Shown piece after piece: positions 2,392-64,000 of a stretch of 64,000 bases of DNA (positions within the stretch are counted from its first letter, which is position 1; each line of letters starts with the position of its first letter). The stretch spans positions 24,246,063 to 24,310,062 of the forward strand of contig NC_134833.1 of assembly GCF_004210375.1 (NCBI RefSeq). The letters run 5' to 3'. The notes under the pieces are model-generated. The model worked only from the letters and a program-made list of their open reading frames with translations. It did not search any database and had not been told where the DNA came from. This DNA is from Tachypleus tridentatus (Eukaryota > Arthropoda > Merostomata > Xiphosura > Limulidae). The position numbers were made by a program, and so were the translations under genes.

Positions 2392-5300
2392 TTAAATGAG
2401 ATTAAAAAGATTAATGGCCATTAAAAAATTAAAAACATTATCAAGGTGGACAGAGTCACCATCACCAATAACTCTGTCCAATGTTACAGACTGACCCTGG
2501 GAAAAAATATGTTTAAAATATTGCCGTCGTTGAGAATTGTAACGATGGCAAGAAAGTAAAACGTGGCTGATAGTGATTTGAGTGTTACACAAACTACACA
2601 TTGGTGCAGCAGTTCCAGATAAAAGAAAATGATGAGTTAAAAAACTGTAACCAATGCGTAGCCTAGTGAGAACAACTTCCTCCTTCCGAACTTTACGGAA
2701 GCTAGATGGCCAAAGTCCAATTTTGGGTTTGATTTGAAAAAGTTTTTTGTTACGTTGCTCACTCCAAGTGGACTGCCAGCTGGCACGGAGCCGAGCCTTG
2801 AAGACAACACCATGGTCCTTGTACAGAATAGGCATAGGAGTAATGGTGCTGAAGCAGACATATTTAGCTGCCATGTCTGCAAGCTCGTTCCCGCGAATAC
2901 CAACATGGCCTGGTATCCAGAAAAACTGGATTGAAGTAGCTGCTAATGAGAAATGGGCCAGTCAGTTTCGAATATCAGCGAGAATAGGATGTGAGCTAAC
3001 ATGTAGCGATTTCAAGGCAAGTATAGAACTAAGCAAATCACTATAAATAGTGCAGTTGGAGTACTGCTCAGCTGCAATATGATCCAGGGCAAGAGATATG
3101 GCATACAGTTCAGCAGTGAACACAGAAGCTGTAGAAGGGATTCTGCTCGCAACTACTGACCCATAGCAAACCATAGCAGAGCCCACTGAATTACCTGATT
3201 TGGAACCATCTGTATAAATGGGAACTGAATGATCGTTTGAAAGATATTCATTGAATAAAAGACAGTACTTCCAATCTGGAGTATCTCCCTTTTTTAGGTG
3301 ACTGAAAGAAAGGTCACATTTGGGGGCTGTAATAAGCCATGGTGGGATGGGCCAACCTGTGGAATCTGCAATGTTATCCAAGGACAGACCCAATTCATCC
3401 AATTGCGCCCGGATGAGAAGGCCAAATGGAGCAACGACAGATCGTCTGTTCTGAAAAAGTACTGCCCACCGAGGAAGGAAAACACATTTCCAGGTGGGAT
3501 GCTTTGGTAAGGAATGAAGTTTCGAAGTATATTGTAAAGATATTTGCAAACGGTGAAGGTGTAGAGAAGGTTCATGAGATATATACTTTGAACTGGAGAG
3601 GTACGGAAAGCCTCAGGGCAGAGTCGAAGTCCTTGGTGATGAATGGGGTCCAGCATCTTTAAGTCCGAGGGTCTGGCAGAGCCATAGACCATTGATCCAT
3701 AATCGAGTTTCAATCTAATAAGAGCACGATATACCTTTAACATTGAACAGCGATCTGCCCCCCATCTGGTAGAAGAGAGAACATGGAGGATGTTCAGTGC
3801 TCTTGTACATTTGACCCGAAGCTGCTTTAAGTGTGGTATAAAGGTCAGTTTACAATCAAAGATAAGCCCCAAGAACTTGGTCTCCGGGACCACTGGCAGC
3901 AAAACTTCACCGATATGAAGTTCAGGTCAGGGTGAATACCCCGTCGATGGCAAAAGTGCATGCATACAGTTTTGGAGAGAGAGAAATTAAAGCCGTTCGC
4001 CAGAGTCCACTTTCGTACACAATTGAGGGCGGTTTGTAGTTGCCGCTCAATATATCTCATGTTTGACGACTGACGTGAGATGTGAAAGTCGTCGACATAC
4101 AGCCCATTCGCAACAGTGAGAGGGAGTTGTTCAGTGATGGCATTTTTCTTTATACTGAAGAGTGTGACACTCAATACACAGCCTTGAGGGACTCCAAGTT
4201 CCTGTACAAAACAACGGGAAAGTGTCGAACCCACACGAACTTGGAATCTCCTGTCCATTAAAAAAATTTTTAATAAACATGGGTAGATGGCCACGTAACC
4301 CATATGTATGGAGGTCTCGCAAAACGCCATACCTCCATGTTGTGTCGTAAGCCTTCTCTATGTCAAAGAATATTGATACAAGATGTTGGCGGTTGAGAAA
4401 GGCTTCTCTGATAGATGTTTCAAGATGAATTAGGTGGTCTGTGGTGGAGTGCTGTCGACGGAACCCACACTGGGTGGGCGAGAGGAGGTTGTTTGATTCA
4501 AGGAACCAAACAAGACGAGCATTAACCATCCTTTCTGATGTCTTACAGTGACAGCTCGTCAAAGCAATTGGACGGTAGTTTGAAGGAATCTTGGGATCTT
4601 TCCCTGGCTTAGAGAAAGGTAAAATAATAGCCTGGCACCAGGCATCAGGAAAAACATTCTCCTGCTAGATCCGGTTGAAAACAATCAGAAGGACATCAAG
4701 AGAAGCAGGAGATAGATGTTGCAGCATGTCATAATGAATATCATCAGGTCCACCAGACATACTGGCAGACCGATAAAGGGCCATTTTTAGTTCCACCAGG
4801 GTAAAGGGACAATTATAGTCAAAGAAACAGTCAGTTAGAAAGGAAAGAGGTGATCGCTCTGCCCGAGTCTTGATGGCCAGGAAGGTGGAGGAACAAGCAG
4901 AAGTGCTAGATACCCAGCAAAAGCTTTCACCTAGAGTGTTAGCAATGTTCCGAACATCAGTCACCTCCTGACCATCAGAGAGTAAGATCGAGAGGGGGAC
5001 AGAATTGTAGTGCCCATTAACCTTTCGAATCCTGTCCCATATGATCTTGGAACTGGTGGTAGAAGATATGCTGGTTGTGAACTTAATCCAAGATTCCTTC
5101 TGGCTTTGACGTCTTACCCAACTAGCATGTGCACGGGCCCGTTGGAAAGCAACCCAGTTTGAAAGTGTGGGATATCTACGAAAAGTATCCCAGGCCCGCT
5201 TTTGAGCCTTCCAGGCTAAGTGGCAAGCAGGATTCCACCACGGACGAGGATATCATGGAAAAAAGTGTCGAGGTTTTAGGAATACACTGAGCAGCTGCAT

Positions 5301-6101
5301 GTGTAATACAGTCAGTTACCGCTGCTACACAGTCTTCTATTGATGGCTGATTTACAATGGCAGGATCAAGTTCTGTGAGAGCAGTGAAAGTGGACCAGTC
5401 TGCCTGATCCAGCTTCCACCGGGGCATGCGGGTAGGGTGGCATCGACCACGGCCAGTCTCTCTCAAAAGGATCGCAAAATGATCACTGCCTAGTGGATTA
5501 CTGTCAACCCTCCATGAAAAATGGGAGAATAATGAAGGGGAGCAAACTGAGAGATCAATAGCGGTAAAGGACTGACTAGGTGCATGAAAGTAAGTGGAAG
5601 AACCAGTATTGATAAGAGAAAGATTGTGATCAGAGAGCATCCGCTCTACAGATTGGCCCCTCCCATCAATAATAGCACTTCCCAGAGGGGATGATGTCCA
5701 TTAAAATCCCCTAGGATTAGAAATGGAGATGGCAATTGTTCAATGAGAGCATCAAGATCTGATTGATCATATGTCTCTCCAGGGGACAGGTACAGAGAAC
5801 AAACAGTGATAGTATGACCCAAGGAAACACAAATGGCTACAGCCTCCAAGGGTGTGTTGAGTGGCAAATACAGGGTGGGCACGTGTTGATCAACCAACAG
5901 TGCCACCCTTCCATGTACTCGACCATCACACAACCTGTCATTTCTGTACAGAGAAAACTGCCGAATGGAGACAGTATCAGCAGTTTTGAGAAATGTTTCT
6001 TGTAAAGAAAGACAAACAGGATGATCAGAAACAATCAGCATTTTGATATCATCCAGATTAGAACGTAAACCTCTACAGTTGCATTGTATCAAGGTGGCCA
6101 T
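2392..6101 (-). pseudogene. LINE ORF2 relic: endonuclease, RT, RNase H
   Basis: Read on the minus strand from 6101. The endonuclease N-terminus shows IQCNCRGLRSN and LILGDFNGHHPLW (5646-6101), and its C-terminal GSDHFAILL lies after a frameshift (5176-5640). A linker follows (4665-5175). The reverse transcriptase (about 3845-4664) has SPTQCGFRRQHSTTDHL, FDIEKAYDTTW and the catalytic YVDD. The thumb covers 3294-3902. RNase H (2962-3400) has PIYTDGSKSG, AELYAISLALD and YSD, matching its acidic residues D, E, D. The C-terminal segment (2392-2874) has LTRLRIGYSFLTHHFLLSG and a CxxC...H....C cluster. At least four frame changes are needed, so it encodes no intact enzyme. Confidence 0.9.
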
Positions 6102-6423
6102 TTTTAAGAATGGGTAGGTGAAGTGGCTGGAGAACCCTTCGGTTTACGACCACGTCTTTTTTCTTTACTCTCTTTAGTCGGAGGAGGTCTATCAACCTCC
6201 ATGGATCCTGCTCTGGGTCAGGTGGGCAGGTTTTTGTTATTGGAAGGGGAATCCAGTGACTGAGGACGTGAACGAATAATTGTTTTGTCTCTTGTGGTGG
6301 GAGAAAAAGATGTATCAGAAGAAATGCCTGTATTTGAAACTGAAGGACGTGGATCTTGAGGTTTGTTGGAAGGTATGGGAGGAACAGAGATGGGTGTGGA
6401 AGTCGATTCATCAACCTTTTTAA

Positions 6424-7394
6424 CTACGTCAAAAGGCTTTTCATTTGTTTTGAAAACGATTCTTTTGGAGGCACAGAGAGATCTATCTGCACTCCCACTG
6501 TAGTTGTGGAATGAAGTGCAGCAGCATATGTCCGAGATAAAGTTGTGGACAGCAATTTCCGAGCCTCAGGATAACTAATGTTATGTGTCATTTTCAAACG
6601 CTGCACCACTTTTTCCTCCAACCATTTTGGGCAAGAATGAAAGTAAGAGGGGTGAGAACCATTGCAGTTTACGCAATGTGGGTTCATGTCACAGTCATAG
6701 GCATCGTGGTCCTTGCCTCCACAACGAGCACATGTCAGGGAACCACGACAAGATGTCTTCGAGTGACCGAACCACTGACACTGGAAACATCAGAGAGGGT
6801 TTGGAATGTATGGCCGAACTTGGCAAATGAGATAACCTGTCTTGATGATGGCAGGCAAAGATGGTGACGTAAATGTGAGAATGAGGACATTGGTCGGCAC
6901 CTAAATTCCATCTTTGCGAATGGATATACGACTCACTGCAGAAACCCCTTTGGTGGAGAAATCAGCAAGAATCGCCGACTCTGGGATCTGGTTCCTTGTG
7001 ATTAATTCAAAATAGCATGAGGTGTAACCTCAATAGATATATCCCCAATTGCCTTTGAATGCAAGAGGAATTCACTATGTTGAGATGTAGATGTTTCTAC
7101 CAATATGTCACCAGATCGAAGCTTCTTTACTGACTTTGAAAAGCTTGCAAGTCCCTCTAGTCCATTCTGAATGAAAAAGGGAGACATTTGCCCTAGAGGT
7201 TTGTCTGAAAGTGAATGCAACATAAGAAAATGAGGTACAACAGGTGGTACAGATGGTGAGGATTGTTGCTCAGAATATGCAAAACATGGTCGTTTACCTA
7301 TACATTGTTTTTTCACTATTTTATTAAGATATTTAATTAGAGTATCCATAATAAAGAAAGGGAAATTTCGGTGTACACTGACCCCACCCACCAT
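6424..7394 (-). pseudogene. LINE ORF1 relic: gag-like protein with CCHC knuckles
   Basis: The minus-strand frame 7394-7002 begins with a Met and contains PLGQMSPFFIQNGLEGL and SVKKLRSGDILVE, a region typical of arthropod LINE ORF1 proteins just before the nucleic-acid-binding part. Around 6640-6790 lie three zinc-knuckle-like motifs: CFQCQWFGHSKTSC, CARCGGKDHDAYDC and CVNCNGSHPSYFHSC. A stop codon precedes the first knuckle (TGA where Arg would be expected), and frames change between 6690 and 7002. Such proteins coat the retrotransposon RNA; this copy cannot make one. Confidence 0.85.
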
Positions 7395-7790
7395 GGAGCC
7401 CTACCAGGGGACTCACTGCAATGTCATATAAGGACACTGCAGCAACACCTGGGTTTTGTGAGCACTATACCCAAACAACAGCATCAGACACAATGCCCAC
7501 AACACCTGTTGAAAACATCCAACACTAGTACTTAGTTGACCCTAGCCCGAGTGGACCAGCCAATTGACCCAAGGCTGCCCATCTAAAGGAATTCAATGCC
7601 AAAATGGTGTGTTAGGGTTGGACCCTTCAACCACCAGGATCCTCTCTTCCCCTTCATGGGTAGCCAAGCATGGCAAATGCGTAGGTGGATGTTTAGATCC
7701 CAGAGGTGGTAAACTGAAAGAACAGAACCTTCCCTGGGAGGTCTCCTCACAACGTACAGGAATCCACACCGAGGGGAACTGTAGAAAGAG

Positions 7791-37793: not shown

Positions 37794-37893
37794 TGCATAG
37801 AAATGTAAACACATAAAAGGATCTGTCAAAGTGGGGAGTTCTTCCTGTGGAAAGAAATTACTTATGGTTACTATGGAGACAGCATCCACAAAG
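37794..37893 (+). CDS. TRPM: TRPM exon 1, candidate start exon
   Basis: The acceptor CTTTTTTCAG lies before 37794 and the donor GTTTGT after 37893. After about 70 nt of UTR, ATG at 37864 opens [10 protein letters not shown], in phase with exon 2 ([14 protein letters not shown]). A minimal upstream ORF, ATGTAA, lies at about 37803. The acceptor implies at least one further non-coding 5' exon. Alternative starts elsewhere are possible. Confidence 0.5.
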
Positions 37894-40800: not shown

Positions 40801-43800
40801 AACACATTAGTGGACACAGCCTACAGTTTGACAGATATTGTCTATGAAAACAACTTATTACATGTGCTTGACACAACTTATATACTCTTCAAAAAAAGAA
40901 ACACAAAAGGCAAAATTTGAAACATATTCTTAAAAAGTTTATTCCGGGTAGTTCTGTATGACATGTGTGAAACTTTGCACATTCACTGCTGAACATCCAA
41001 AGTCTGCAAAGGCGAAGTCCACACTCACTAGTTGAAGTTTAACGTCATTCAACGTCAATAGCGAGTATGCCCTCCGTGAGCATCAATAACTGCTTGGCAT
41101 CTCCTGCCCATTGGAAGCGATGAGATGACGAATCACATCCTGTGGAATGGCTGTCCACTCAGTCTGCAAAGCTGCTGCAAGCTGAGATAGAGTCTGCAGT
41201 TGAGGTTGTCGCCGTCGCAGACGTTGGTACAACTCGTCCCAAAGATGTTCGATGGGGTTTAAATCTAGTGATCTGGAGAGCCAGGGAAGAATGTTGATGT
41301 TGTGGTGTCTCAAGAAGACAGTGGTGAGTCGGGCTGTGTGAGGACGGGCGTTGTCATGTTGAAAAACGTCATTGATGTTCACCATGAGGGGTTGCACATG
41401 GGGCCTAAGAATCTCGTAGACGGTTGCATACGGTCTGATCGGAAATCCTACGCAGCCCTGGTATGGTTGAGGCAGTAGACGTCGTAGTGGTGTTCCTATC
41501 CTGAAGGTGACGTAACCAGATGTTGCGATCTTGTGCGGGCGTGGTCATACCTGATCTGCCAGGTCGTGGACGGTCACGAGTTGATCCATATTGTTGGTGA
41601 CGATTCCATAGCCTTGTGATGGTGCTTGGGTGGACATTCACAGCTCTAGCAACATCTGATCGAGATTCACCTGCTTCCAAGCGACCGATGGCGTTGTTGC
41701 GTTGTGCTTCAGTCAGTCTTGGCGTAACTGTATTGCGTGTCAGTGGCTTAACACTGAGCTATGGAAACCGAGAACCCGTCACTTTTATAGGGATTTTGCA
41801 CGTGTTGCACTTGCAGAACATGCAGATCTCTCAAACAAATTTATTGGACACGAATGTGTTTTGGCGAAAAATCCAATGTTTTCCTCCATTTTCAAAGTGC
41901 ACAACTTTTATTGTCATTTTGATCTGACAATCAGTGCCTTAACACATGTAACATCACATACTCTGAGCTTGTAACGTTATTACATATATTTCTCTTTAAA
42001 ATAACAAAAATATCCCTTTTGCGTTTCTTTTTTTTGAAGAGTATATTACATGTGCTTGACACAACTTATATTACATGTGCTTCACAAAGCACAGCCCATA
42101 TGAATAAGTCTTGTCTTAAAATATATTTGACTTCAGTGAAGTTTTATATTTTTATAACATGGCTTTTTTTTTGTAGTGTACATTTATAATATAAATGTTT
42201 TTGATATATTTATAAAGTATTATCTTGTTTAATTTTTTGATATATTTATAAAGTGTTTAATTTTTTGATATATTTATAAAGTATTTAATTTTTTGATATA
42301 TTTATAAAGTGTTTATTATCGACACCTCTGATAATAAATGTGTAAAAAATGTTTAAATGTGCTGTTAATGTACAGTGTAGATTAATATTGATAATTTTTG
42401 ACCAACAAACACTAGCAGATAAATTTTGATGATAATTTAGCACTCAAAGGAATATCTAATATATGATTTTTTATCAAAGGTTAACAAAATGTTAATGACA
42501 AGAAATATAGCAAACTGTACTTTTATGTACTTGAAATGTTTTCAGTCAGTGCATCAGGAAGTAAGTGTTTTAAATTTTACTAAATTTGATTTCTTCTTTT
42601 AACTTAGTACTATGGTGTTTTTACTGTTATGGAATACATTTGATGTTGTGAACTGTATTTATTTTGCTTTTTAACAGGTGTTGTTGTGGCCTGGTCTTTG
42701 AACAGCATTCCCCTTTGGCCACTCAGAGCTTAGGAGGGTTTAGTATTCACAGTGGAAGCTCACAGTTGTCAGGAGATGAACACTGGTCATTCTCTCGTCA
42801 CACAACCCTCTACCCTACAGATGCTTTTGGAATAATTGAGTTTCAAGGCAGTTCTCATCCTCTTAAAGCACAGGTAGAAACATATCTTCAGTAAAACATA
42901 CTGGTTAATTGTATAAGGTGTTGTTATTATATATACATGACTGTTTATAATTGTCTGATGAAACATTACTGGTTTGTGAGCATCGTAATTTTATTATTAG
43001 GTTTTGATATTATCATCACTATTTATATTTTATTGTTCATCTGTCATTAAAATTTCTCTAAGATTAAGAGATCTTGTTAGTATTAAGTGGTTTTGGTTTG
43101 TATGAATCCCTCGTACCTGATATATGGTATAACATAGTAACAAAAGGCTATTCTAGAAATAACCGACCACCAAACTTAATTTATCTATAATAATAAAAGT
43201 TAAAAATGTTCCTTTGGATATTTGGAGATATAAAAGTTGTTTCAGGAAAATGAACAAATGTATTTGTTAAAACCTTTATTGTAAGTAGTAAGTAAGTGTG
43301 ATGCCATTAACAGTTGTTTCAGTAGAATATTGTTTGAAAATAATATTACCTTCTATTTTCATATTGAACAGTTAAACTACTTGTTTAGGATATATTGCAA
43401 ATGAATTATGACCTTAGCGGAATGTAGATAGAATTATTTCTTAATTTTCAAGTATGTTAGGCTGAGTTACGACACTCGACCAGAGTTAGTTCTCCAGTTA
43501 CTCACGGAAGAATGGAAGCTGGAACTTCCAAAGCTTTTAATCAGTGTTCATGGAGGAAAGGCTAATTTTGAACTACAACATAAGCTAAAACAGGTTCTCA
43601 GAAAAGGGCTTGTTAAGGCAGCAAAAACTACTGGAGCTTGGATATTTACTGCTGGAACAAATACAGGTAAAAGTTCATTGATATGTATTTGATTGACGCG
43701 TTTACCAACATGAAATCCATGGATTATAAAAAATGTACGATATCTGTTTATTTTAATAATTAGAAACTTGTAATAACACGGTAAATGTTTAGTTTGTGCT

Positions 43801-44374: not shown

Positions 44375-47300
44375 ATAGTTTGTTGTAGCATACATATTGT
44401 CTGAGTAATTAGACTGAACATGAAACAGATGTCTTCCATTCAAGTACTAATAATACCAATACAGTTAAGATTTATATATATGTAAGTATTTTTAATAAGA
44501 AATGTTTAGAGCAAGCTTTTTTATTATGTGGAAAACATAAAGACCATGTTATTTTAAATTAATACTTATTAGCTATGAATTTCAAACACTGGATGCCAAA
44601 GTGGCCGGTGGTTACTGAGATTGAATGTCATGTGAAGGTCTTGCATTCAAATCCTAGTGAAGTCAGGATTTTGTTAATGTTTTCATAAATTATCATATTT
44701 ACAGCAAGTACTTTCAATACTGTTATAGATTAAATCAGACATTTAAAATGTTGATTGTCATTTGAATTAAAAGATGGCACATTTACAGCATCAAGCCACT
44801 TCAGTTTTCTTCAATTGAACATTTTTAACACCATCTTTGAAATAAATTCTAAACCTATATTCTGAATAAGACTACAAATAGTTCAGAAATATGTACAAGA
44901 AAAGAAAACATCATTTAGCAATATAAATAAAAATTAGATGGATAACAAGACAAAATCAAGAACACTTAGTAAATATAAAGATAACTGGAGCAGACAGGAA
45001 AACAGTTGTCTTGATCAGTAAAGTTGCTGAAGAAACAAAGCAAAAGAGACAAATTGATACTGAAAGACATGCAAACATATTCTATGTATTCTTCATATGC
45101 TTGATGGGTATATCAGCTGACGTTTTAATAACAGTCACAACACATAGATTTTTAAAATTTTATTAGTAGGCCTCTGTTTATTCTCCAGGTGTTTGATGGG
45201 TACATCAGCTAGTGTTTTTATAACAGTCACAATCCTTAGATTTTTAAAATCTTATTAGTAGCCCTCTATTTATTCATATGTTTGGTGAGTACATCAGCTA
45301 GTGTTTTAATAACAGTCACAACACATAGATTTTTAAAATCTTATTAGTAGCCCTCTGTGTTCTTTGTATGTTTGATGGGTACATCAGCTAGTGTTTTAAT
45401 AACAGTCACAATACATAGATTTTTAAAATATTGTAGTTTTGTTGCACTTATTGTTCAGTTCATTTCGTTACAGTTACTTAGTATTGTTTTTTTTTGTGTG
45501 TGTGTATAAGTAAACCTTAAACTTCCTGAAAAACATGGGATAATTTACATATTCCATGTAATCTTAAATTATTACTTAAATATTATTTTTAAAAAATCAA
45601 GTCCCTTATTCCCAAAATAAAAACAGAAAATATATTTAAATGGAAATAATAAATATTTAAACTATATAAATATGTACATAATTAAAAATTAACCATTATA
45701 TTTTTTAACAACATTAATTACTAAATCAGTTATTCCAATCCAGTGATATATGTTGGTCACGTTAATCTGGAACTCGTATAATTAATATTCAGTCTCATTA
45801 AGAATTCATCACTTTCTACTTTTGCAAGTGAAAATAATTAATTAACTTATTGTGTTTTTGTTTGTGTCTATCAATGAACAACTTGGTACAATCAGCTCAG
45901 TGTACTGTGTAATTAGTGTTGTTTCTTTGTTTGTGTCTGTTAATGAACAACTTACTACAACCAGTTCAGTGTACTGTGTAATTAGTGTTGTTTTTATTTT
46001 GTGTTTATCAATGAACCACTTACTACAACCAGCTCAGTGTACTGTGTAATTAGTATTGTTTTTATTTTGTGTTTATCAATGAACCACTTACTACAACCAG
46101 CTCAGTGTGCTGTGTAATTAGTATTGTTTTTATTTTGTGTTTATCAATGAACCACTTACTACAACCAGCTCAGTGTACAGTGTAAGTAATATATTGTTTT
46201 TCTTGTTTGTCTATCAATGAACAACTTGGTACAATCACAGAGATACCAACCATTATGATTTGAGCGTAATCATTATGATTTTGGTGTATACATTATGACT
46301 ATATGCTCATACAGACAAATGTTATGACTTGTTGCAACTCCCAATTTATTGTATATTACATAGGCCTATAAAATAGTGATAAATTTTTCCCCCAGGCTTG
46401 AAAGGGGTGAAAAGAAAATTTCTAGTGAGATACAAATAAATTTTGATGATAAATAAAAGACGTAGTCCAAATGGCTACTTGCGATAATCATGTTTGTGCT
46501 TGAAATAATAAAAAATATTTGTATCTCTGACGTCTACCAATAGTTTGAGTGCGGTGCTTCTCCATACTGGGTACATGGGGGAATCTATAGTTACGTCATC
46601 AGTGCTTGTCAGCCAATCAGCTCTCGCATAGATGGATATTTCTCACTTTCTAAGCAGCATAGAAACACCAATGCGATCGTTCACAAGATGGAAAAAAAGA
46701 GGCCTCATTCACCAGATTGTCTTGTTTCTGGCAAATTTAAAAGGACTAAAACTGTGAATCAAAAATTTAGGAAAGAGTATAGTGCAAAATATCCGGTCAT
46801 TGCATCAAAAGTCAGTGACAGTCATGCGTTTTGTACAGTTTGTCACATCAATTTTTCTGTGGCCCATGGCGGAATAAACGATTGTTCCAGACATACAAAA
46901 TCAGCATCTCACCAACAAAAGGCTGAGGTGAAGACAAACACGATGCAGATAACGACATTTATGAGTAAGAATTCAGAATATGAAACCATAAATGCAGAAG
47001 TGATGTTCACGCAATTTGTCATTGCTCATAATTTACCCCTAACTGTAGCTGATCATGCAGGACATCTATTCAGAAAAATGTTCCCAGACTCTGATGTAGT
47101 GAAAAAATATGGCTAGAACCAAATCTACAGCCATTGTACAAATGTTGGGTTGTGAAGATGACAAAATGATTTCAAGCATACTTACTAACAGTGTTTACAG
47201 TTTAGCCACAGATGGATTCACAAACATGGATGACTCAAAACTCTATCCAGTGGTTGTACGATATCTTGATCCTTTGCTTGGAATAACTGTTCTCTTTTGA

Positions 47301-50300
47301 CAATGGTGGAATGGAAAGAAGCTTCAATGGGAGAGAATATTTTCAAGCTTTTGGACCACGAACTGACAAAGAGGAAAATTCCATGTGAAAATGTCTTAGT
47401 TTTCCTTCAGACAATTCCTCAGTTATGTCTGGTATAGGTAAAGGTGTGATGGGACACATCTCAAGACGACAGCCTAGCATTTACTTCATGGGCTGTTCCT
47501 GTCATCTCATGAATATTGCTGCCCAGAAAGCTTCCAGAGAATTGCCCTGCCCAGTTTCTGATATATTGATAGATATCTACTATTTCCTGGACAAAAGTGC
47601 TAGCAGTAAACAACATTTAAAAGAGTTTCAAGGATTGTATGGCAAAGAAACAAGAAAAATTCTACAACTTGTTAACACAAGATGGCTATCACTTGGGGTG
47701 TGCCTCAACAGAATATTGGACATGTGGAAGCCATTGAAGAAGTATTTTCACTGAGGAAAGGAAAAACTAGATTCAAAAGGATCTAAACGTGCAGCTCAAT
47801 TAGGCAGCAAGACTTTAACAGTCAGGATATCTTCTCAGCCACACAGGAACATGAGACAACAGTCTCCAAAAGCAGACAAAGAAGCATTTGATGTAACTCA
47901 ATATATGTTTAGGCAGTCTGACCTTGAACTAAAGAAGAGACAATCAATGAGAAAAGAGAAGAAAATGAAAGCCAGCAAGAAAGTAACCAAGAAAAGTTAT
48001 GTACAGAGCAAGTTAGATAAGTTGACAGTTTTCTTGGACAACAAAATGAACTTGTTATTTTGTCTTTTTATTCAGTCTGCAATTCCTCTATTTGAGCAAG
48101 TCAATTTGATATTGCAAAGAGAAGAACCTTGCATACACATTATGCATAGAACTCTGATTACACAAGTTAAAAATATACTTGTCAGATACATCAAGCCAGA
48201 ATATCTTGAAGGCAACATCACTGAACTTGACTACAACAATGAATACTTACATATATCTGATGAGGTAGTTTCTATTGGAAATGCTGCCAAGGAATACATT
48301 GTTAAATATGAAAAGGACCTGACCTGATCAGCTTCTACACCAGTGTCAAGAAATACTATATTGCAGCTATAAATTACATGATGAAACATTTCCCTCTAAA
48401 TGATGAACTTCTGATTCATGCAGAGGTTTCTGATCCAAAACTGAAAGTTGGCAAAGATTTCTCTTCTCTGCATTTCTTCACAGCAGGTATCCTGTCCTTG
48501 TCAATATACATGAGCATGACACTATTGAAAAGTTGGTAAAGCAATATTTGAACTATTAAATTGATACTTTCTCAGAAACTGTTCTTCAGTTGAATGTTGA
48601 CAAGTTTTGGGTTCAGCTGTTTACAGTTAAGGATGGAAATGGCAACCAGAAGTATGACATTCTGTGTATGGTTATGCTTAGAATTCTTACAATCTTCCAT
48701 TCTAATGCTGACAGTAAAAGGATATTTAGTTTAGTGACTAAAAAACAAAAGCAAGTTCAGACCAAACTTGAGCACCTCAGTTTTGAGTAGTATTATAACA
48801 CACAAGATGTGTATGTAGTCAAATGGACAATGTTGTTATAACTCCCAACCATCCAGAGACATTCTCATGAAAGCAAAGGCTGCAACAGCTGCAAAGCTAT
48901 TACAGTAAGTGTCATAAACATGATATAAACTAGTCTTTACACAAAGGCTTTTTTTCCTTACTGTTTGTGCATGTTCAATGTTGTTTTACCTGTATGTTTG
49001 TTACTCTGAACTAAATAAAAGACATAATTTCAAAAGAATGTTTTTAAAATTCATTTATTAAATACACAAAACACAGTCATAAATGAGCAATCTATAGCAG
49101 TGATAAATAATAATAGTTATAATAATAAGCAGCTTAGAGACATTGGTCAGGCCTATTAGCTGCAAATGATAAAGGGTTCTGTCTACAATCATTACGCGCT
49201 CAGTCATTTGAAATAGTTGGCATCTTTGCAATCAGCTCAGTGTACAGTGTAATTAACATATTGCTTTTTTTTGGTTGTGTCTATCAATGAACAACTTGGT
49301 AAAAGTAGCTCGGTGTACCATGTAATTAACTTATTGTTTTTGTTTGTGTGTATCAAAGTACAACTTGGAATAAGCAGCTCAGTGTGCTATGTAATTAAGT
49401 TTGTTTTTTTGTTTGTGTGTATCGACGAACAATTTAGTACAAGTAGCTCAGTGTACTGTGTAATTAACTTTTGTTTGTGTCTATTAATGAACAACTTAGT
49501 AGAAGCAGCTCAGTGTACTTTGCGATGTGTTAATTATTTCCACTTGTGAAAGTAGAAAGTGATGAATTCTTAATGAGAGTGAATATTGATCATATGAGTT
49601 CCAGATGAATATGACCAAGATATATCACTGGGTTGGAATAACGTATTTAGGTATTAGTGTTGATAAAAAAAAAAAAATACAGTGATTAATCGTTAATTAT
49701 GTACATATTTATACAGTTTAATTATTTATTATTTTCACTTAAATAAATTTTCTGTTTTTATTTTGGGAAGAAGGGACTTGATTTTTTAAAAATAATATTT
49801 AAGTAATAATTTAAGATTAAATCGAATATATAAATTATTCTTTGTTTTTCATGAAGTTTAAGGTTTATTTATGTATTAATAAGTATATATATATATAGAT
49901 GTACATTTTATAAAACGGAACTTGATATGGTTTTTCTTGCTGGTTTTCTTCAGCAGTTGTACGTAACTAGAATGTGGATGAACGTCTAAATTATTTTTTC
50001 CAATTAAATACCTGAACCATTTATTTCTTTCTAAATGTATATTTGTGTATAAAATTATGGAGTGTGTGCTAAATGTTTGTCATAAAACTTACTTTTAAAA
50101 GAAAATGTTAAAACATGTTGGTGAATTGGCGCTTTCCTTTCAGACAGTAGTACCATACCATAGTATTTCATCACCTAAGAGCCGTTTAACGGTTCTGAAC
50201 AATCACCACTCCTACTTCTTGCTAGTTGATAACGGTACCATGGGAAAGTATGGAGCAGAGATAGCTTTCCATAAGAAGCTTGAAAGTACATCTCTAAACA

Positions 50301-53300
50301 GAAAATTCAACCACGTAGGTTCAATCCAGCCATTTATGTATTATTGAACTTTCGAATTTCTTTATAGATGTACAGTAACAGTTATTTGTATAACAGTGTA
50401 GTGTGTTAAAAATTTTTGTAGGCCATAATAATAGAACACATAGTGTGAATAGGCTGGAAAGTAGGTACTTCTGTAGTTATAAAGTCGGTGACAAATTTCT
50501 TGTGATGTCCAAAATAAATCTTAATTGCTTTGCAGGATAAATAAAAAATTAGATGAGCCACAATATAAGAAAAATAATGCCCTAATGTAATTTTTCAGAG
50601 TGTTTTGTTGTTTATATATACACATTATACACAGGTTACAGTGTTGTTATTTACATGTTATACACAGGTTACACTGTAGTTTTTTGCACATTGTACACAG
50701 GTTATACTGTGGTATTTTACACATTATTCACAGCTTTACACTGTTGGGTTTTACACATTATACAGCTTTACACTGTTGGGTTTTACACATTATACACATC
50801 TTTACACTGTGGTGTTTTACACATTATTCACAGCTTACACTGTTGGGTTTTACACATTATACACAGCTTTACACTGTTGGGTTTTACACAGCTTACACTG
50901 TGGGGTTTTACACATTATACACAGCTTACACTGTTGGATTTTACACATTATTCACAGCTTACACTGTTGGATTTTACACATTATTCACAGCTTACACTGT
51001 GGGGTTTTACACATTATTCACAGCTTTACATTGTGGTATTTTACACATTATTCACAGCTTACACTGTTGGGTTTTACACATTATTCACAGCTTACACTGT
51101 TGGGTTTTACACATTATACACATCTTTACACTTGGGTTTTACACATTATTCACAGCTTACACTGTTGGGTTTTACACATTATACACATCTTTACACTTGG
51201 GTTTTTACACATTATACGCATCTTTACACTGTGGTGTTTTACACATTATTCACAGCTTTACACTCTTGGGTTTTACACATTATACACATCTTTACACTGT
51301 TGGGTTTTACACATTATACACATCTTTACACTGTTGGGTTTTACACATTATGCACAGCTTTACACTCTTGGGTTTTACACATTATACACATCTTTACACT
51401 GTTGGGTTTTACACATTATACACATCTTTACACTGTTGGGTTTTACACATTATACACATCTTTACACTGTTGGGTTTTACACATTATGCACAGCTTACGC
51501 TGTTGGGTTTTACACATTATTCACAGCTTACACTGTTGGATTTTACACATTATTCACAGCTTACACTGTTGGATTTTACACATTATTCACAGCTTACACT
51601 GTTGGATTTTACACATTATTCACAGCTTACACTGTTGGGTTTTACACATTATTCACAGCTTACACTGTTGGGTTTTACACATTATTCACAGCTTACACTG
51701 TTGGGTTTTACACATTATTCACAGCTTACACTGTTGGGTTTTACACATTATACACAGCTTACACTGTTGGGTTTTACACATTATACACAGCTTTACGTTG
51801 TGGTGTTTTACACATTATACACATCTTTACACTGTTGGGTTTTACACATTATACACATCTTTACACTGTTGGGTTTTACACATCATACACATCTTTACAC
51901 TGTTGGGTTTTACACATTATTCACAGCTTACGCTGTTGGGTTTTACACATTATGCACAGCTTACGCTGTTGGATTTTACACATTATACACAGGTTACGCT
52001 GTTGGGTTTTACACATTATGCACAGCTTACACTGTTGATATCATATAGTACTTTATTTAAAAACAATTTACTTCAGAACAAATTTTAAATATACTAAATC
52101 TCTAAATATTTTTGGCAAACTTTATAATTAAATTATGTGCCTAGATTAAGGAACAACTGTGTATTTCCGTATCAGTTCTGTTCCATCAGTGTTGTTATTA
52201 AATAGACAAGAAGACAGTGGGTTTGGTAAATTGGTTACATTTCTTTTTTGGGCTCATAATTATCCTGATATCTGTGGAGGTGACAAAACCCTAACTAGAA
52301 AAATTGGTCATAAAAGTTAATTAGTAATAGTTAATAATTTGTGTAAATGAAATGCAGTTACTAAATTTGTAACAAAGTATCTATGTCTTTCAGTAAATTA
52401 AAATACCTTCTTCTCTTCACCACAGTTGTAATCCATATCAAATTAATGTACTATAACAAGCAATCATGTACGTCTGGTATCAGAAGTGGTGTGACTAACT
52501 TTTGTACGTCTGGTATCAGAAGTGGTGTAACTAACTTTTGTACGTCTGGTATCAGAAGTGGTGTGACTAACTTTTGTAAGTGTGGTATCAGAAGTGGTGT
52601 GACTAACTTTTGTACGTCTGGTATCAGAAGTGGTGTGACTAACTTTTGTACGTCTGGTATCAGAAGTGGTGTAACTAACTTTTGTACGTCTGGTATCAGA
52701 AGTGGTGTGACTAACTTTTGTAAGTGTGGTATCAGAAGTGGTGTGACTAACTTTTGTACGTCTGGTATCAGAAGTGGTGTGACTAACTTTTGTAAGTGTG
52801 GTATCAGAAGTGGTGTGACTAACTTTTGTAAGTGTGGTATCAGAAGTGGTGTGACTAACTTTTGTAAGTGTGGTATCAGAAGTGGTGTGACTAACTTTTG
52901 TAAGTGTGGTATCAGAAGTGGTGTGACTAACTTTTGTAAGTGTGGTATCAGAAGTGGTGTGACTAACTTTTGTACGTCTGGTATCAGAAGTGGTGTAACT
53001 AACTTTGTAACGTCTGGTATCAGAAGTGGTGTGACTAACTTTGTAAGTGTGGTATCAGAAGTGGTGTGACTAACTTTGTAACGCCTGGTATCAGAAGTGG
53101 TGTGACTAACTTTGTAAGTGTGGTATCAGAAGTGGTGTGACTAACTTTGTAAGTGTGGTATCAGAAGTGGTGTGACTAACTTTTGTAAGTGTGGTATCAG
53201 AAGTGGTGTGACTAACTTTTGTAAGTGTGGTATCAGAAGTGGTGTGACTAACTTTGGTTTTTCATAAAGTAAATGTTATGCTACAAAAACTTGGAAAGGC

Positions 53301-56300
53301 GTTTTTGAGACTTCATTTGTCGTCATACCTATTTTGATAATTCATAAACATACAAATAATGAAACCACTGGTTAGTAACTGAAGAGAATTCATACAAGAA
53401 ACACTATTTATAGCTGAGGATTTGGGGCAAGTGGAGCTGTATGCTTCAGTTGTGTTAATATATGATTTTCCTTCGAAGATATTAGTGGGCAATTGATGTG
53501 CTTACTGTACAGTTTAAGTTCCTTTACTTATTGGCTGAAAGGTGTTATATTTACTGCTATAATATAGCATAAAATAAATGAAACTGAGGAAACTTTTCAA
53601 TATGTGGTGTTATAAGTCCAGCAGCCCTCTGAATGGTCATAACTAAACTATGTAAATAGCTGGTTTGAAATGTATCATCTGAATTAACTTATTTTCCAAT
53701 TTTTAATTTTTCCAGTTTTAAAATTGTTTTTTATATGTGTAGTTTGGCTTATAGTTATGTTCTGTGAAAATAATATCCAATATTGTATATTGTTATTTGA
53801 ATATCACTTTTAAGTAATATCTAATTAAGTCTAAAGAGTATATGTTTTGGTGTATTTTTGTATCAGGTAGTGACATTCGCAGTTGTGGTGTCCCAGTGGT
53901 TTGTATAGTGGTGGAAGGAGGACTGAACACTATCCGAACAGTTCTGGAATGTGTGACAGACACTCCACCTGTACCAGTTGTTATCTGTGATGGTAGCGGC
54001 CGTGCTGCAGACCTCTTGGCCTTTACCCACAAATATGTTCAAGAATCCGAGTAAGTTAATTTGATCTTTATTTTATGGTTTTGTTTCAGTAGAAAAATGA
54101 TTATATCTTACTAAATATGTAAATACTGTTTTACACTTTCAATAATCTTACTGGAAAGTAATTTTAATTTTCTTATCAAAGTTTTCATCTTCAGTAAAGG
54201 TCAGTACAGATTTGTGACTGTTTTAGAAAATCTGTCTAAAGGGCAAAGAACAAACATAAAGTTTTTATTGAAACAGAATCTGTCTGTTTTTAAACAACAT
54301 ATTTCAACTAAATTATTATTTTTATATAAATATTCTTAGCTGTATGGGTAGTAGTAACTTAAGTATTGTGGTAGCACTGTAACAGGATTCAACTAACATG
54401 AACAGTACTCTTTAAGTATAATATTAGAAGATCGTGAATTCTAGTCTTAAGACCACATGATTACTTGTTTCTTTTAGTGTAGCAGGTGCAGAATATCTGG
54501 TCAGTACTATTGAGAAGACATTTCATTTAGAAAGGGAGAAAGCTGAAAAGTTATATGGAGAAATGGTGGAATGTGTCAGACGACGAGACTTGGTAAGTAT
54601 TTGATCTACTATACATGTAAAAACTGCTGGTATGGGTAGAGAGATGGTGGAATGTGTCAGATGATGAGACTTGGTAAGTATTTGATCTACTATACATGTA
54701 AAAACTGCTGGTATGGGTAGAGAGATGGTGGAATGTGTCAGACGACGAGACTTGGTAAGTATTTGATCTACTATACATGTAAAACTGCTGGTATGGGTAG
54801 AGAGATGGTGGAATGTGTCATATGACAAGACTTGGTAAACATTTGATCTACTATACATGTAAAACTGCTGGTATGGGTAGAGAGATGGTGGAATGTGTCA
54901 TATGACAAGACTTGGTAAACATTTGATCTACTATACATGTAAAAACTGCTGGTATGGGTAGAGAGATGGTGGAATGTGTCAGATGATGAGACTTGGTAAG
55001 TATTTGATCTACTATACATGTAAAAAACTGCTGGTATGGGTAGAGAGATGGTGGAATGTGTCAGATGACAAGACTTGGTAAGTATTTGATCTACTATACA
55101 TGTAAAAACTGCTGGTATGGGTAGAGAGATGGTGGAATGTGTCATATGACAAGACTTGGTAAACATTTGATCTACTATACATGTAAAAACTGCTGGTATG
55201 GGTAGAGAGATGGTGGAATGTGTCATATGACAAGACTTGGTAAACATTTGATCTACTATACATGTAAAAACTGCTGGTATGGGTAGAGAGATGGTGGAAT
55301 GTGTCATATGACAAGACTTGGTAAGCATTTGATCTACTATACATGTAAAAACTGCTGGTATGAGTAGAGAGATGGTGGAATGTGTCATATGACAAGACTT
55401 GGTAAGCATTTGATCTACTATACATGTAAAACTGCTGGTATGGGTAGAGAGATGGTGGAATGTGTCATATGACAAGACTTGGTAAGTATTTGATCTACTT
55501 TACATGTAAAACTGCTGGTATGGGTAGAGAGATGGTGGAATGTGTCATATGACAAGACTTGGTAAGTATTTGATCTACTATACATGTAAAACTGCTGGTA
55601 TGGGTAGAGAGATAGTGGAATGTGTCATATGACAAGACTTGGTAAGTATTTGATCTACTATACATGTAAAACTGCTGGTATGGGTAGAGAGATGGTGGAA
55701 TGTGTCAGATGATGAGACTTGGTAAGCATTTGATCTACTTTACATGTAAAACTGCTGGTATGGGTAGAGAGATGGTGGAATGTGTCAGATGACAAGACTT
55801 GGTAAGCATTTGATCTACTATACATGTAAAACTGCTGGTATGGGTAGAGAGATGGTGGAATGTGTCATATGACAAGACTTGGTAAGTATTTGATCTACTT
55901 TACATGTAAAACTGCTGGTATGGGTAGAGAGATGGTGGAATGTGTCATATGACAAGACTTGGTAAGTATTTGATCTACTATACATGTAAAAACTGCTGGT
56001 ATGGGTAGAGAGATGGTGGAATGTGTCAGATGACAAGACTTGGTAAGCATTTGATCTACTTTACATGTAAAACTGCTGGTATGGGTAGAGAGATGGTGGA
56101 ATGTGTCAGATGATGAGACTTGGTAAGTATTTGATCTACTATACATGTAAAACTGCTGGTATGGGTAGAGAGATGGTGGAATGTGTCAGATGATGAGACT
56201 TGGTAAGCATTTGATCTACTATACATGTAAAACTGCTGGTATGGGTAGAGAGATGGTGGAATGTGTCATATGACAAGACTTGGTAAACATTTGATCTACT

Positions 56301-59300
56301 ATACATGTAAAACTGCTGGTATGGGTAGAGAGATGGTGGAATGTGTCATATGACAAGACTTGGTAAGCATTTGATCTACTATACATGTAAAAAACTGCTG
56401 GTATGGGTAGAGATGGTGGAATGTGTCATATGACAAGACTTGGTAAACATTTGATCTACTATACATGTAAAAACTGCTGGTATGGGTAGAGAGATGGTGG
56501 AATGTGTCATATGACAAGACTTGGTAAGTATTTGATCTACTATACATGTAAAAAACTGCTGGTATGGGTAGAGAGATGGTGGAATGTGTCATATGACAAG
56601 ACTTGGTAAGTATTTGATCTACTATACATGTAAAACTGCTGGTATGGGTAGAGAGATGGTGGAATGTGTCATATGACAAGACTTGGTAAGCATTTGATCT
56701 ACTATACATGTAAAACTGCTGGTATGGGTAGAGAGATGGTGGAATGTGTCATATGACAAGACTTGGTAAGCATTTGATCTACTATACATGTAAAACTGCT
56801 GGTATGGGTAGAGATGGTGGAATGTGTCATATGACAAGACTTGGTAAACATTTGATCTACTATACATGTAAAAACTGCTGGTATGGGTAGAGAGATGGTG
56901 GAATGTGTCATATGACAAGACTTGGTAAACATTTGATCTACTATACATGTAAAAACTGCTGGTATGGGTAGAGAGATGGTGGAATGTGTCATATGACAAG
57001 ACTTGGTAAGTATTTGATCTACTATACATGTAAAACTGCTGGTATGGGTAGAGAGATGGTGGAATGTGTCATATGACAAGACTTGGTAAGCATTTGATCT
57101 ACTATACATGTAAAACTGCTGGTATGGGTAGAGAGATGGTGGAATGTGTCAGATGATGAGACTTGGTAAGCATTTGATCTACTTTACATGTAAAAACTGC
57201 TGGTATGGGTAGAGAGATGGTGGAATGTGTCAGATGACGAGACTTGGTAAGTATTTGATCTACTATACATGTAAAACTGCTGGTATGGGTAGAGAGATGG
57301 TGGAATGTGTCATATGATGAGACTTGGTAAGTATTTGATCTACTATACATGTAAAAACTGCTGGTATGGGTAGAGAGATGGTGGAATGTGTCATATGACA
57401 AGACTTGGTAAGCATTTGATCTACTATACATGTAAAAACTGCTGGTATGGGTAGAGAGATGGTGGAATGTGTCATATGACAAGACTTGGTAAGCATTTGA
57501 TCTACTATACATGTAAAACTGCTGGTATGGGTAGAGAGATGGTGGAATGTGTCATATGACAAGACTTGGTAAGCATTTGATCTACTATACATGTAAAAAC
57601 TGCTGGTATGGGTAGAGAGATGGTGGAATGTGTCATATGATGAGACTTGGTAAGTATTTGATCTACTTTACATGTAAAAACTGCTGGTATGGGTAGAGAG
57701 ATGGTGGAATGTGTCAGATGATGAGACTTGGTAAGCATTTGATCTACTATACATGTAAAAAACTGCTGGTATGGGTAGAGAGATGGTGGAATGTGTCATA
57801 TGACAAGACTTGGTAAGCATTTGATCTACTATACATGTAAAACTGCTGGTATGGGTAGAGAGATGGTGGAATGTGTCATATGACAAGACTTGGTAAGTAT
57901 TTGATCTACTATACATGTAAAAACTGCTGGTATGGGTAGAGAGATGGTGGAATGTGTCAGATGACAAGACTTGGTAAGCATTTGATCTACTTTACATGTA
58001 AAAACTGCTGGTATGGGTAGAGAGATGGTGGAATGTGTCAGATGATGAGACTTGGTAAGCATTTGATCTACTATACATGTAAAAACTGCTGGTATGGGTA
58101 GAGAGATGGTGGAATGTGTCATATGACAAGACTTGGTAAACATTTGATCTACTATACATGTAAAAACTGCTGGTATGGGTAGAGAGATGGTGGAATGTGT
58201 CATATGACAAGACTTGGTAAGCATTTGATCTACTATACATGTAAAAACTGCTGGTATGGGTAGAGAGATGGTGGAATGTGTTATATGACAAGACTTGGTA
58301 AACATTTGATCTACTATACATGTAAAAACTGCTGGTATGGGTAGAGAGATGGTGGAATGTGTCATATGACAAGACTTGGTAAGTATTTGATCTACTATAC
58401 ATGTAAAAACTGCTGGTATGGGTAGAGAGATGGTGGAATGTGTCATATGACAAGACTTGGTAAGTATTTGATCTACTATACAGGTAAAACTGCTGGTATG
58501 GGTAGAGAGATGGTGGAATGTGTCATATGACAAGACTTGGTAAGCATTTGATCTACTATACATGTAAAACTGCTGGTATGGGTAGAGAGATGGTGGAATG
58601 TGTCATATGACAAGACTTGGTAAGCATTTGATCTACTATACATGTAAAACTGCTGGTATGGGTAGAGAGATGGTGGAATGTGTCATATGACAAGACTTGG
58701 TAAACATTTGATCTACTATACATGTAAAACTGCTGGTATGGGTAGAGAGATGGTGGAATGTGTCATATGACAAGACTTGGTAAGTATTTGATCTACTATA
58801 CATGTAAAAACTGCTGGTATGGGTAGAGAGATGGTGGAATGTGTCATATGACAAGACTTGGTAAGTATTTGATCTACTATACATGTAAAAACTGCTGGTA
58901 TGGGTAGAGAGATGGTGGAATGTGTCATATGACAAGACTTGGTAAGCATTTGATCTACTATACATGTAAAAACTGCTGGTATGGGTAGAGAGATGGTGGA
59001 ATGTGTCATATGACAAGACTTGGTAAGCATTTGATCTACTATACATGTAAAAACTGCTGGTATGGGTAGAGAGATGGTGGAATGTGTCATATGACAAGAC
59101 TTGGTAAGCATTTGATCTACTATACATGTAAAAACTGCTGGTATGGGTAGAGAGATGGTGGAATGTGTCATATGACAAGACTTGGTAAGCATTTGATCTA
59201 CTATACATGTAAAACTGCTGGTATGGGTAGAGAGATGGTGGAATGTGTCATATGACAAGACTTGGTAAGCATTTGATCTACTATACATGTAAAAACTGCT

Positions 59301-62300
59301 GGTATGGGTAGAGAGATGGTGGAATGTGTCAGATGATGAGACTTGGTAAGTATTTGATCTACTATACATGTAAAAACTGCTGGTATGGGTAGAGCGATGG
59401 TGGAATGTGTCATATGACAAGACTTGGTAAGTATTTGATCTACTATACATGTAAAATCTGCTGGTATGGGTAGAGAGATGGTGGAATGTGTCAGATGATG
59501 AGACTTGGTAAGTATTTGATCTACTAATAATTTGTTATTATGTAAATGTTTTTGTTTTGATACAAATAACATGAGATTGTGTTGACCTAGATCACAGTGT
59601 TCAGGAAGGGAGAAGGTCCATATCAGGATTTGGATCAAGCTGTCCTTACAGCTCTTTTGAAAGGTATGACTGAATATTTATTTTATTTTCAAGTTTGGAT
59701 TAAATTACTTTTTATGATCTGTTTTAGTATTTTTTAAAACTTTTTTAATAAGAAGTTTATTTATTCTATTTAAGTATATTAGTTGTATGACACAGTAAAA
59801 TATTTATTCCAAATTGAACAACTTGTTTTGGTGTAGGTCATCACCTACCTCCACCTGATCAACTGAATTTAGCACTGACCTGGAACAGAGTTGACATTGC
59901 ACGGTCTGAGATATTTTTTTATGGTCAAGAGTGGACTGTGAGTTATTGTTTTTGTTTTGTAATTCATTATATGAACACTGCTAAAGTTGTTATACTAAAC
60001 TAAACTGTTTTTATACTTAGGTAGTCCTTGATGTAATTTATTTATATAAAAGCCTTAGCATGCATCCATTTATTGTTTTGTAACCTTCAATAAGATGTCA
60101 TTTGTATGGGATAAAAATGTGTTAATATTTTCCATCCAATTTAGCCTGGATCTTTGGAGACAGCTATGATGGAAGCATTACTATTGGAAAGAGTGGATTT
60201 TGTGAAACTTTTACAAGAAAATGGTGTTAGTATGCAGAAGTTTCTAACAATAAAACGACTGGAGGATATTTATAATTCTGTAAGTATGAATGCAACTAGT
60301 TATTGTACACTTACCAGTTGAAGTAGTTGGTAGATATGATTTGTGCTAGTTAGGTGGTTTCTTCTATCAGAGTAGGGTAAGATCTGTTTTTAAGTTTTTT
60401 CCTCTCTTTTCATAATTATGATATTAAATATCACTAATTCCATTAGTGCTGTTTATTTTTGGTCACTTGAAATTCTTTTATTCATGTTTTTATTTTGTTT
60501 TATTCAGAAATGTGGGCCAGGAAATACCCTACGGTACCTTGTTCAAGACATACGAAAAGTAAGACTTACTAAACTTTTGATTCAGTATGTGAATTTTTTT
60601 AGGATGTTTAGGATTTACTTAATCTTTTCTATGTTGTGAAACGTGGACATTCTGTTTATCTGGTAAATGAATGCTGTCCAAGACGACATGGATTGTGTGT
60701 TTGTTCTGTGGAATGTTTCATTTTGAAAGACTTTCACTGTCAGTATACTTTACATATAATGTAGAGTAAGACCAAAATTGATAAAAGTTGTTCAGTAATT
60801 AATGAGTTAATTGTAAACAAATGTTTTATCTGTACACGTGAAAATAATTGAACGTGTTATTGTATAGAAACAGTTCCTTGTTTTATTGAGTTAAAATATT
60901 AAGAATGCATTTGGCTTGGAACATAAAGGATACCTTATTTTATTTTAGTTTTTTAAAATGTTTATTTGTAAAATATGCAAAAATAATATTAATGTACACT
61001 ATATTGGTCTGTTTTTGAGAAAATATTACAAGGATATCTACATACATAACAGTGGTTTCAAACCTGTTACGTACATAACTGTAGGAGGAAGTGAAACCCT
61101 TTGAAAGTACCCATACCTCAAAATTGGAGATTGGTATTCATGAGTTACCAAAATTTTACAGTAGCCAGTACTCAATGTTTACATGTTATTTACTTATCCT
61201 GAAATGATTTATCATTATTTACCTTTATATTAATATAAATCATTCATATTATTTTAAAACAACTTATGTACAGGGTACATCTATGACCCAAAGATCTCGC
61301 TGGGGGTATATGTGCCATAAGAAGGTTGGAGACTGATATGTGCTGTTATTTTTAAACATATGCCACAGAAGTATTAATATAGACTGAATGTGTTTTGTTT
61401 CAGGAGTAGGCCTCAAAATATTGCAATACGCTATGTTTTTTTGGAGGTTGACAGAAGCTTATTACTGTCCACTGTTTTTTTTTTTTTTTTTACAGAATAT
61501 GCCACATGGATATCGATATACACTATACGATATTGGCTTAGTCATAGAAAAATTGATGGGTGGTGCATACCGTTCATCTTACTGTCGCAAGAAGTTTCGA
61601 CAATTGTATCACAACGTGATGAAAAGGATTGCATTTAATGAGAGGATGAAAAAAGTTGCAACAGTAAGAATAAACAGAATAATTCAATGTAATATTTATT
61701 GTACAAATATATTGAATAACATATTCTAAAAGTGTGAAGTTAACTGTAGAAACCAGAAAGTATTCAACAGTTTAATCCATAAGTTGAACTACCATTGAAT
61801 GTTTTCGACTCTGAAACTTAATATTCTGAGACTTTATACAAATGATTGGTTTGTGTAAAGTGTATGTAACTTTGTATATAAATATTTTGAGTAAGAATAG
61901 GAAACATTACAAGGTGGGACTGTGTTTTTTAAATATAGCTTGGTTATATTTTAAATTCATTCTTTACCATATGATTGGTAACTGTTGGTTTTATTGGTTT
62001 AGCTTGGTTATATTTTAAATTTATTCTTTATCTTGTGATTGGTAACTGTTGGTTTTATTGGTTTAGCTTGGTTATATTTTAAATTCATTCTTTATCTTGT
62101 GATTGGTAACTGTTGGTTTTATTGGTTTAGCTTGGTTATATTTTAAATTCATTCTTTACCATGTGATTGGTAACTGTTGGTTTTATTGGTTTAGCTTGGT
62201 TATATTTTAAATTCATTCTTTACCATGTGATTGGTAACTGTTGGTTTTATTGGTTTAGCTTGGTTATATTTTAGATTCATTCTTTACCATGTGATTGGTA

Positions 62301-63193: not shown

Positions 63194-63215
63194 GTACATA
63201 CCAACTTTATTTCAC

Positions 63216-64000
63216 TAGAATACCTAGTTAAAAGTGATCTGTTTATTGGCTGTAACCTGATTTAAAACTTTAACTCAGTAGAATACCTTGTTAAAACTGA
63301 TATGTTTATTAACTGTAACCTGTTATAAAAGCTTGTTTCAGTAGAATACCCAGTTAAAATTGATCTTGTTTATTAACTATAATCTCTTATAAAAGCTTGT
63401 TTCAGTAGAATACCTAGTTAAAACTGATCTTGTTTATTAACTGTAACCTGTTACAAAAGCTTGTTTCAGTAGAATACCTATTTAAAACTGATCTTGTTTA
63501 TTAACTGTAACCTCTTATAAAAGCTTGTTTCAGTAGAATACCCAGTTAAAACTGATCTTGTTTATTAACTGTAACCTGTTATGAAAGCTTGTTTCAGTAG
63601 AACACCTAGTTGAAACTGATCTTGTTTATTAACTGTAAACTGTTATGAAAGCTTGTTTCAGTAGAATACCTAGTTAAAACTGATCTTGTTTATTAACTGT
63701 AACCTGTTATGAAAGCTTGTTTCAGTAGAATACCTAGTTAAAACTGATCTTGTTTATTAACTGTAACCTGTTACAAAAGCTTGTTTCAGTAGAATACCAA
63801 GTTAAAACTGATCTTGTTTATTAACTGTAACCTGTTACAAAAGCTTGTTTCAGTAGAATACCAAGTTAAAACTGATCTTCTTTATTAAATGTAACCTCTT
63901 ATAAAAGCTTGTTTAAGTAGAATACCTAGTTAAAACTGATCTTGTTTATTAACTGTAACCTGTTATGAAAGCTTGTTTCAGTAGAATACCTAGTTAAAAC
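63216..64000. repeat. 64-bp minisatellite with acceptor-like ends, about 12 copies, runs off the window
   Basis: The unit is TAGAATACCTAGTTAAAACT, GATCTTGTTTATTAACTGTA, ACCTGTTATAAAAGCTTGTT, TCAG. It starts about 20 nt after the exon 15 donor and continues past the right edge. Confidence 0.94.

Follow-up and report, generated by a model that had tools for sequence, protein, structure and literature searches.

Results and Discussion

A TRPM Gene Rich in Tandem Arrays

The window, by which we mean the whole stretch of 64,000 nucleotides that was analysed, carries a gene of which 11 exons, joined at GT-AG sites, gave an open frame of 521 amino acids in which the Pfam domain LSDAT_euk ("SLOG in TRPM") was recognized at E 1.2e-108. 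Among the matches listed, the nearest full-length protein was the Tachypleus tridentatus "trpm-like isoform X2" (P0134, 94–98% identity), a gene model, possibly from another individual or assembly, that represents four member sequences of which one was inspected; next came a Limulus protein (P0135, 91–94% identity). As judged from the exon-by-exon alignment of T. tridentatus TRPM, the gene that carries the array described below is horseshoe-crab TRPM. When P0134 was mapped on the window, coding exon 1 fell at 37864, where an ATG is present and the first 10 residues match the T. tridentatus protein; counted from this ATG, the coding exon beside the array is exon 8, as the first-pass annotation had labeled it. 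A solved TRPM3 aligned without gaps over the junction of exons 8 and 9. In exon 6 (50144–50318) the frame switches, and the last 11 residues of the T. tridentatus protein were found in another frame, attributable to a misassembly, a polymorphism, or damage to this allele. A second T. tridentatus TRPM (P0136) is 72% identical and belongs to a contig that differs in length, consistent with a retained gene duplicate.

The window also holds several reading frames of a different kind. On the reverse strand, the element at 105–7400, which we take to be a broken non-LTR retrotransposon, contains a frame (2962–3612) that shares 94% identity with a T. tridentatus protein across 95% of the frame, and T. 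tridentatus supplied 12 of its 13 matches. Together with the TRPM matches, this assigns the window to T. tridentatus or a near relative. Two further frames lie in TRPM introns: one in intron 2 (41083–41758, reverse strand) presumably resembles a Tc1/mariner transposase, and the other in intron 5 (46544–48327, forward strand) a hAT transposase, again by our assumption. There was no tRNA in the window (searched with bacterial settings), and no Rfam match at gathering thresholds anywhere in it.

Tandem arrays are abundant. In the Tandem Repeats Finder (TRF) output, with rows merged by hand, 18 arrays with a period of at least 25 covered 23.9% of the window, and 10 arrays made up 10,331 of the 26,137 bases (39.5%) of the TRPM stretch 37864–64000. 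The array in intron 6 (52467–53255) has a 36-bp period and 22 units, with 12 GTAAGT and 22 ATCAG, and its distance to the closest exon edge is 612 nt; thus, even within this gene, the intron 8 array is not alone in carrying donor-like sites in a row. Another array, with a 64-bp period (63210–64000), begins 17 nt past the last base of exon 15, contains 10 acceptor-like TTTCAG, and reaches the end of the window. We estimated how often an array would begin over a splice site by chance: under a model in which founder duplications fall at random on the array-free gene, selection is ignored and the array list is the hand-merged one, 0.52 founder units were expected over 5' splice sites and 0.49 over 3' splice sites, and the chance of at least one over a 5' splice site was 0.41. 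A variant estimate with 11 exons and 9 arrays gave 0.39 expected over a 5' splice site (P 0.32). Because the 10 arrays fill about 40% of the gene stretch, it is not improbable that one of them crosses a splice site.

Anatomy of the Array in Intron 8

The first-pass annotation had described an exon-intron boundary amplified about 61 times inside its own intron, and the counts bore this out: TRF reported an 81-bp array with 61.7 copies and 96% matches, which we cut into 62 units, namely one beginning in exon 8, 60 full intronic units, and one truncated unit (table 1). A unit is made of ~35 nt from the end of exon 8, the 5' splice site, and ~46 nt from the intron that follows, the composition originally proposed; unit 1 begins within exon 8 at 54558 and spans the junction 54592/54593.

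Table 1. Features of the TRPM Exon 8–Exon 9 Region (positions are those of the window)
Feature	Position	Strand	Evidence
TRPM coding exon 8, 115 nt, last 35 nt part of unit 1	54478..54592	+	tblastn of T. tridentatus TRPM, GT-AG exon table
Tandem array with 81-bp period, 61.7 copies; unit of exon end plus 5' splice site plus start of intron 8	54558..59526	+	TRF, unit list
Authentic 5' splice site GTAAGT, U1 5'-end duplex -11.1 kcal/mol	54593..54598	+	direct exon 8–9 continuity in a T. tridentatus and a Limulus protein
In-frame TGA reached first from any of the 61 downstream donors	54602..54604	+	frame reading
Full intronic units 2–61 (60) with donor-like sites	54642..59475	+	unit list
Unit 3, keeps both exonic CpGs, CGACGAGACTTG	54723..54802	+	unit list
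Truncated unit 62, the last; continues into unlike intron sequence	59476..59526	+	TRF, unit list
TRPM coding exon 9, 64 nt beyond the array	59591..59663	+	tblastn, GT-AG exon table

The junction GACTTG/GTAA (exon end/donor) was found in all 62 units, and the donor hexamers were GTAAGT in 25, GTAAGC in 26, and GTAAAC in 11, which confirmed the dozens of donor-like sites that had been noted after the real one. A 32-nt pattern that joins the exon end to the donor, allowing up to three mismatches, matched 51 times in the window, every time within the array, and not once in 100 shuffles. An exact match of the unit pattern was absent from viral_contigs, as expected for an animal intron.

The mean identity of all 62 units was 95.6% over the 52 nt compared, and 33 of the 62 were distinct versions. 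Mirages, the comparable amphioxus arrays treated below, are marked by concerted evolution from which the boundary units are exempt; in TRPM, units 1 and 3 retain ancestral CpGs, but the last units are of types that occur elsewhere in the array, bar single changes. Adjacent units were alike over the 52 nt in 15 of 61 pairs, compared with 8.4 expected from shuffles, and similarity exceeded that of shuffles at lags of 1, 5, 18, and 23 units (P ≤0.012, 30 lags tested); we take these lag excesses as local similarity only. Long repeated blocks of units were also considered and rejected: the longest run was 3 units, which was equalled in 110 of 1,000 shuffles. The same variety bears on the idea that the copy number was inflated, or the whole array created, by assembly. 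The exon 6 frame switch relative to the T. tridentatus protein, which may be a sequence error, speaks for such an artefact, but the many distinct units, the excess of like neighbors, and a window without any N speak against it, and we consider an artefact quite unlikely.

The Exon as the Source of the Intronic Copies

The end of exon 8 reads CAGACGACGAGACTTG. Both of its CpGs were retained in only 2 of 62 units, the exon copy and unit 3, that is, in 1 of the 61 intronic copies; unit 34 retains one of them, and the remaining units read TGATGA or TGACAA at that place. The copy that keeps the exon's own CGACGAGACTTG (54723–54802) had been called the third intronic one, and this needs correction: it is the third unit with the exon counted, and the second within the intron. 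Over its 4,969 bases the array contains 6 CpGs (observed/expected 0.042), compared with ratios of 0.36 in the window and 0.39 in 14 TRPM exons. Because the intronic units show the CpG decay of a coding sequence, the exon is, by parsimony, well supported as the source of the intronic copies; the decay in nearly all of them agrees with the ancestry suggested from the first reading. The exonic copy would have stayed intact because it is coding, as CpG decay would convert its two CGA codons to CAA or, when it strikes the coding strand, to TGA stops.

Donor Choice and the Reading Frame

Past the first donor the frame runs GTA AGT ATT TGA; this TGA, at 54602, was the first in-frame stop reached from every one of the 61 later donors. 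The first-pass annotation had predicted that use of a downstream donor would truncate the channel, which holds, and had assigned the stop to CATGTAA, which does not. The predicted product of any later donor is one and the same truncated protein ending in ...RRRDLVSI. Since all 61 later donors lie behind a single TGA, donor choice cannot vary the protein, and the earlier suggestion that different donors give different inserts fails. Alternative channel proteins with differing inserts therefore have the presence of many donors in their favor and nothing else; short of stop-codon readthrough they are refuted by the frame, and we regard them as hardly credible.

In T. tridentatus P0134 and Limulus P0135 (one protein each, both gene models) exon 8 proceeds to exon 9 without an insert, a direct join that agrees with use of the first donor. 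In competition between two comparable donors the intron-proximal one is favored, by a mechanism described as not known (PMC6002489); thus, use of the first donor in TRPM needs explaining. The predicted energies of pairing with the U1 5' end were -11.1 kcal/mol for GTAAGT, -8.0 kcal/mol for GTAAGC, and -5.3 kcal/mol for GTAAAC, and in the GTAAGT context nine bases of the U1 5' end are paired. The hexamer of the authentic donor recurs in 24 of the 61 intronic donors, and the other 37 are weakened at +5/+6. Masking of the decoys by RNA structure was rejected as an explanation, the first donor ranking only 58 of 62 in predicted local-folding accessibility.

The array could also be read as a row of pseudo-exons or recursive splice sites, with intron 8 removed stepwise or short exons inserted. 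Each unit does have AGs ~30–34 nt ahead of its donor, and a 30-nt in-frame pseudo-exon would encode 10 residues in unit 3 as it does in the exon; this pattern fits 61 of 62 units (exon included), but 59 of these have a stop in that frame. The acceptor signals are poor as well. The 314 AGs of the array had a median of 40% pyrimidines over the preceding 15 nt, whereas 14 exon acceptors in this gene had a median of 77%, and the longest pyrimidine run in the array was 4 nt. On the other hand, the exon 9 acceptor is weak too (53%), and 2 of the 314 equalled or exceeded it. Together with the lack of an insert in the inspected T. tridentatus and Limulus proteins, the stops and the generally poor acceptor signals make pseudo-exons or stepwise removal highly improbable.

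We also addressed whether the additional donors bear signs of selection. Among the 61 intronic copies, mean diversity was 0.087 in the 9 donor columns compared with 0.034 in the other 42 of the 51 columns. The donor columns are the more variable because +5 and +6 vary, and constraint on the decoy donors was rejected on this ground. The weakening of 37 of 61 donors could reflect selection against decoys, but it concerns just two sites: two of the four common non-CpG variable columns, which were chosen by hand, lie in the donor, which was not significant (P 0.14). Neither column diversity nor this test of variable columns gave clear evidence that the extra donors are under selection.

Regulation of splicing by the array, which the first-pass annotation had raised, was weighed against these data. 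U1-binding decoys might slow or detain intron 8, hold back unspliced transcripts in the nucleus, or drive a dose switch operated by nonsense-mediated decay. The 62 donor-like sites, 25 of them GTAAGT in a context that can form nine base pairs with the 5' end of U1, the GTAAG density (10.3 per kb in the array vs. 1.5 per kb in the remainder of 40–64 kb), the premature stop that follows from each of the 61 later donors, and the weakening of 37 of the 61 decoys would all suit such a regulator. On the other side, the donor columns are no more conserved than the remainder of the unit, nine further arrays lie in the other introns of the gene, and splicing was apparently normal with comparable arrays in amphioxus (PMC3087553). 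A regulatory role is thus unsupported by the evidence found, and we consider it unlikely.

Comparison with Known Boundary-Spanning Minisatellites

The first-pass annotation had known of no described case quite like this one, which does not hold, as close relatives are described in the literature. Amphioxus globin genes contain minisatellite-like tandem duplications of exon-intron boundaries, termed "mirages" as in Adh3, which occur at 5' and 3' boundaries and are unstable in length, and RT-PCR suggests that regular splicing is undisturbed by them (PMC3087553). The repeats of PGBD5 are likened to the ones in globin, Adh, and troponin C (PMC3902484), and variable internal repeats at exon-intron boundaries are reported in human genes (PMC2812944). 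As in the amphioxus mirages of Adh3, BflGb6, and BflGb9 so described, the TRPM tandem unit spans an exon-intron boundary, the authentic boundary copy most likely stays in use, and many units keep their splice signals (GACTTG/GTAA in 62 of 62). The TRPM unit measures 81 bp, whereas the amphioxus units given there measure 10–72 bp (Adh3), 150–160 bp, and 157 bp; the TRPM intron contains 61 copies, whereas two amphioxus BflGb6 haplotypes have 6 and 3 units. The hosts also differ, horseshoe crab versus amphioxus, and the TRPM data come from one assembly and gene models.

A minisatellite with multiple splice donors is also reported, by title, for a human interferon-induced transcript (6-16/IFI6, G1P3). 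Compared with IFI6, TRPM has an 81-bp unit, later donors that lead to a stop, and an inspected annotated protein without an insert. The IFI6 minisatellite reportedly consists of short 12-bp repeats, several donors of which are said to be actually used.

Intron gain by tandem duplication, known from ATP2A1, potato RdRp, and fission yeast genes (PMC4974935), resembles the TRPM array in that splice signals were copied along. Unlike in those cases, the TRPM copies lie within an existing intron, with no new intron and no good acceptor, and the protein is continuous over exons 8–9 and includes nothing array-derived. We concluded that the TRPM array is a large case of the boundary-spanning minisatellite already described in amphioxus; new here are the chelicerate host and a copy number above any met in our literature search, which was no survey and covered the sources in part.

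Origin and Implications of the Array

We proposed, with a probability of roughly 0.77, that the array is a mirage-type minisatellite within the intron, which arose by duplication of the exon 8 boundary and then expanded, that the first donor is most likely the one used, and that the array has little or no function. From the anatomy of the units, the founding event would have been a tandem duplication that copied ~35 nt from the exon 8 end together with the 5' splice site and ~46 nt from the beginning of intron 8. Slippage or unequal exchange may then have raised the number to 61 extra copies, accompanied by homogenisation and CpG decay. Two features would most likely direct splicing to the first donor, namely the definition of exon 8 by its own acceptor and the order of transcription, the first donor presumably being transcribed and bound ahead of the rest, ~5 kb before the exon 9 acceptor. 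Any RNA spliced at a later donor would carry the truncated frame, and its removal by nonsense-mediated decay is expected. Such an array would have little or no function and is probably neutral.

At the other extreme, it is a long shot that the 61 extra U1-binding sites form a working decoy device that keeps U1 bound to intron 8 and determines the amount of full-length TRPM. If so, the device would act through intron detention, shielding from premature polyadenylation, or a nonsense-mediated-decay switch, and array length would tune the channel dose between individuals.

As a mirage-type minisatellite, the TRPM array adds a chelicerate to the amphioxus and human hosts of boundary-spanning minisatellites. 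Dozens of near-identical donors behind one coding exon amount to a natural experiment in how the first of many splice sites is picked, and individuals that differ in copy number would provide a test of commitment to the first-transcribed donor as opposed to the donor nearest the acceptor.
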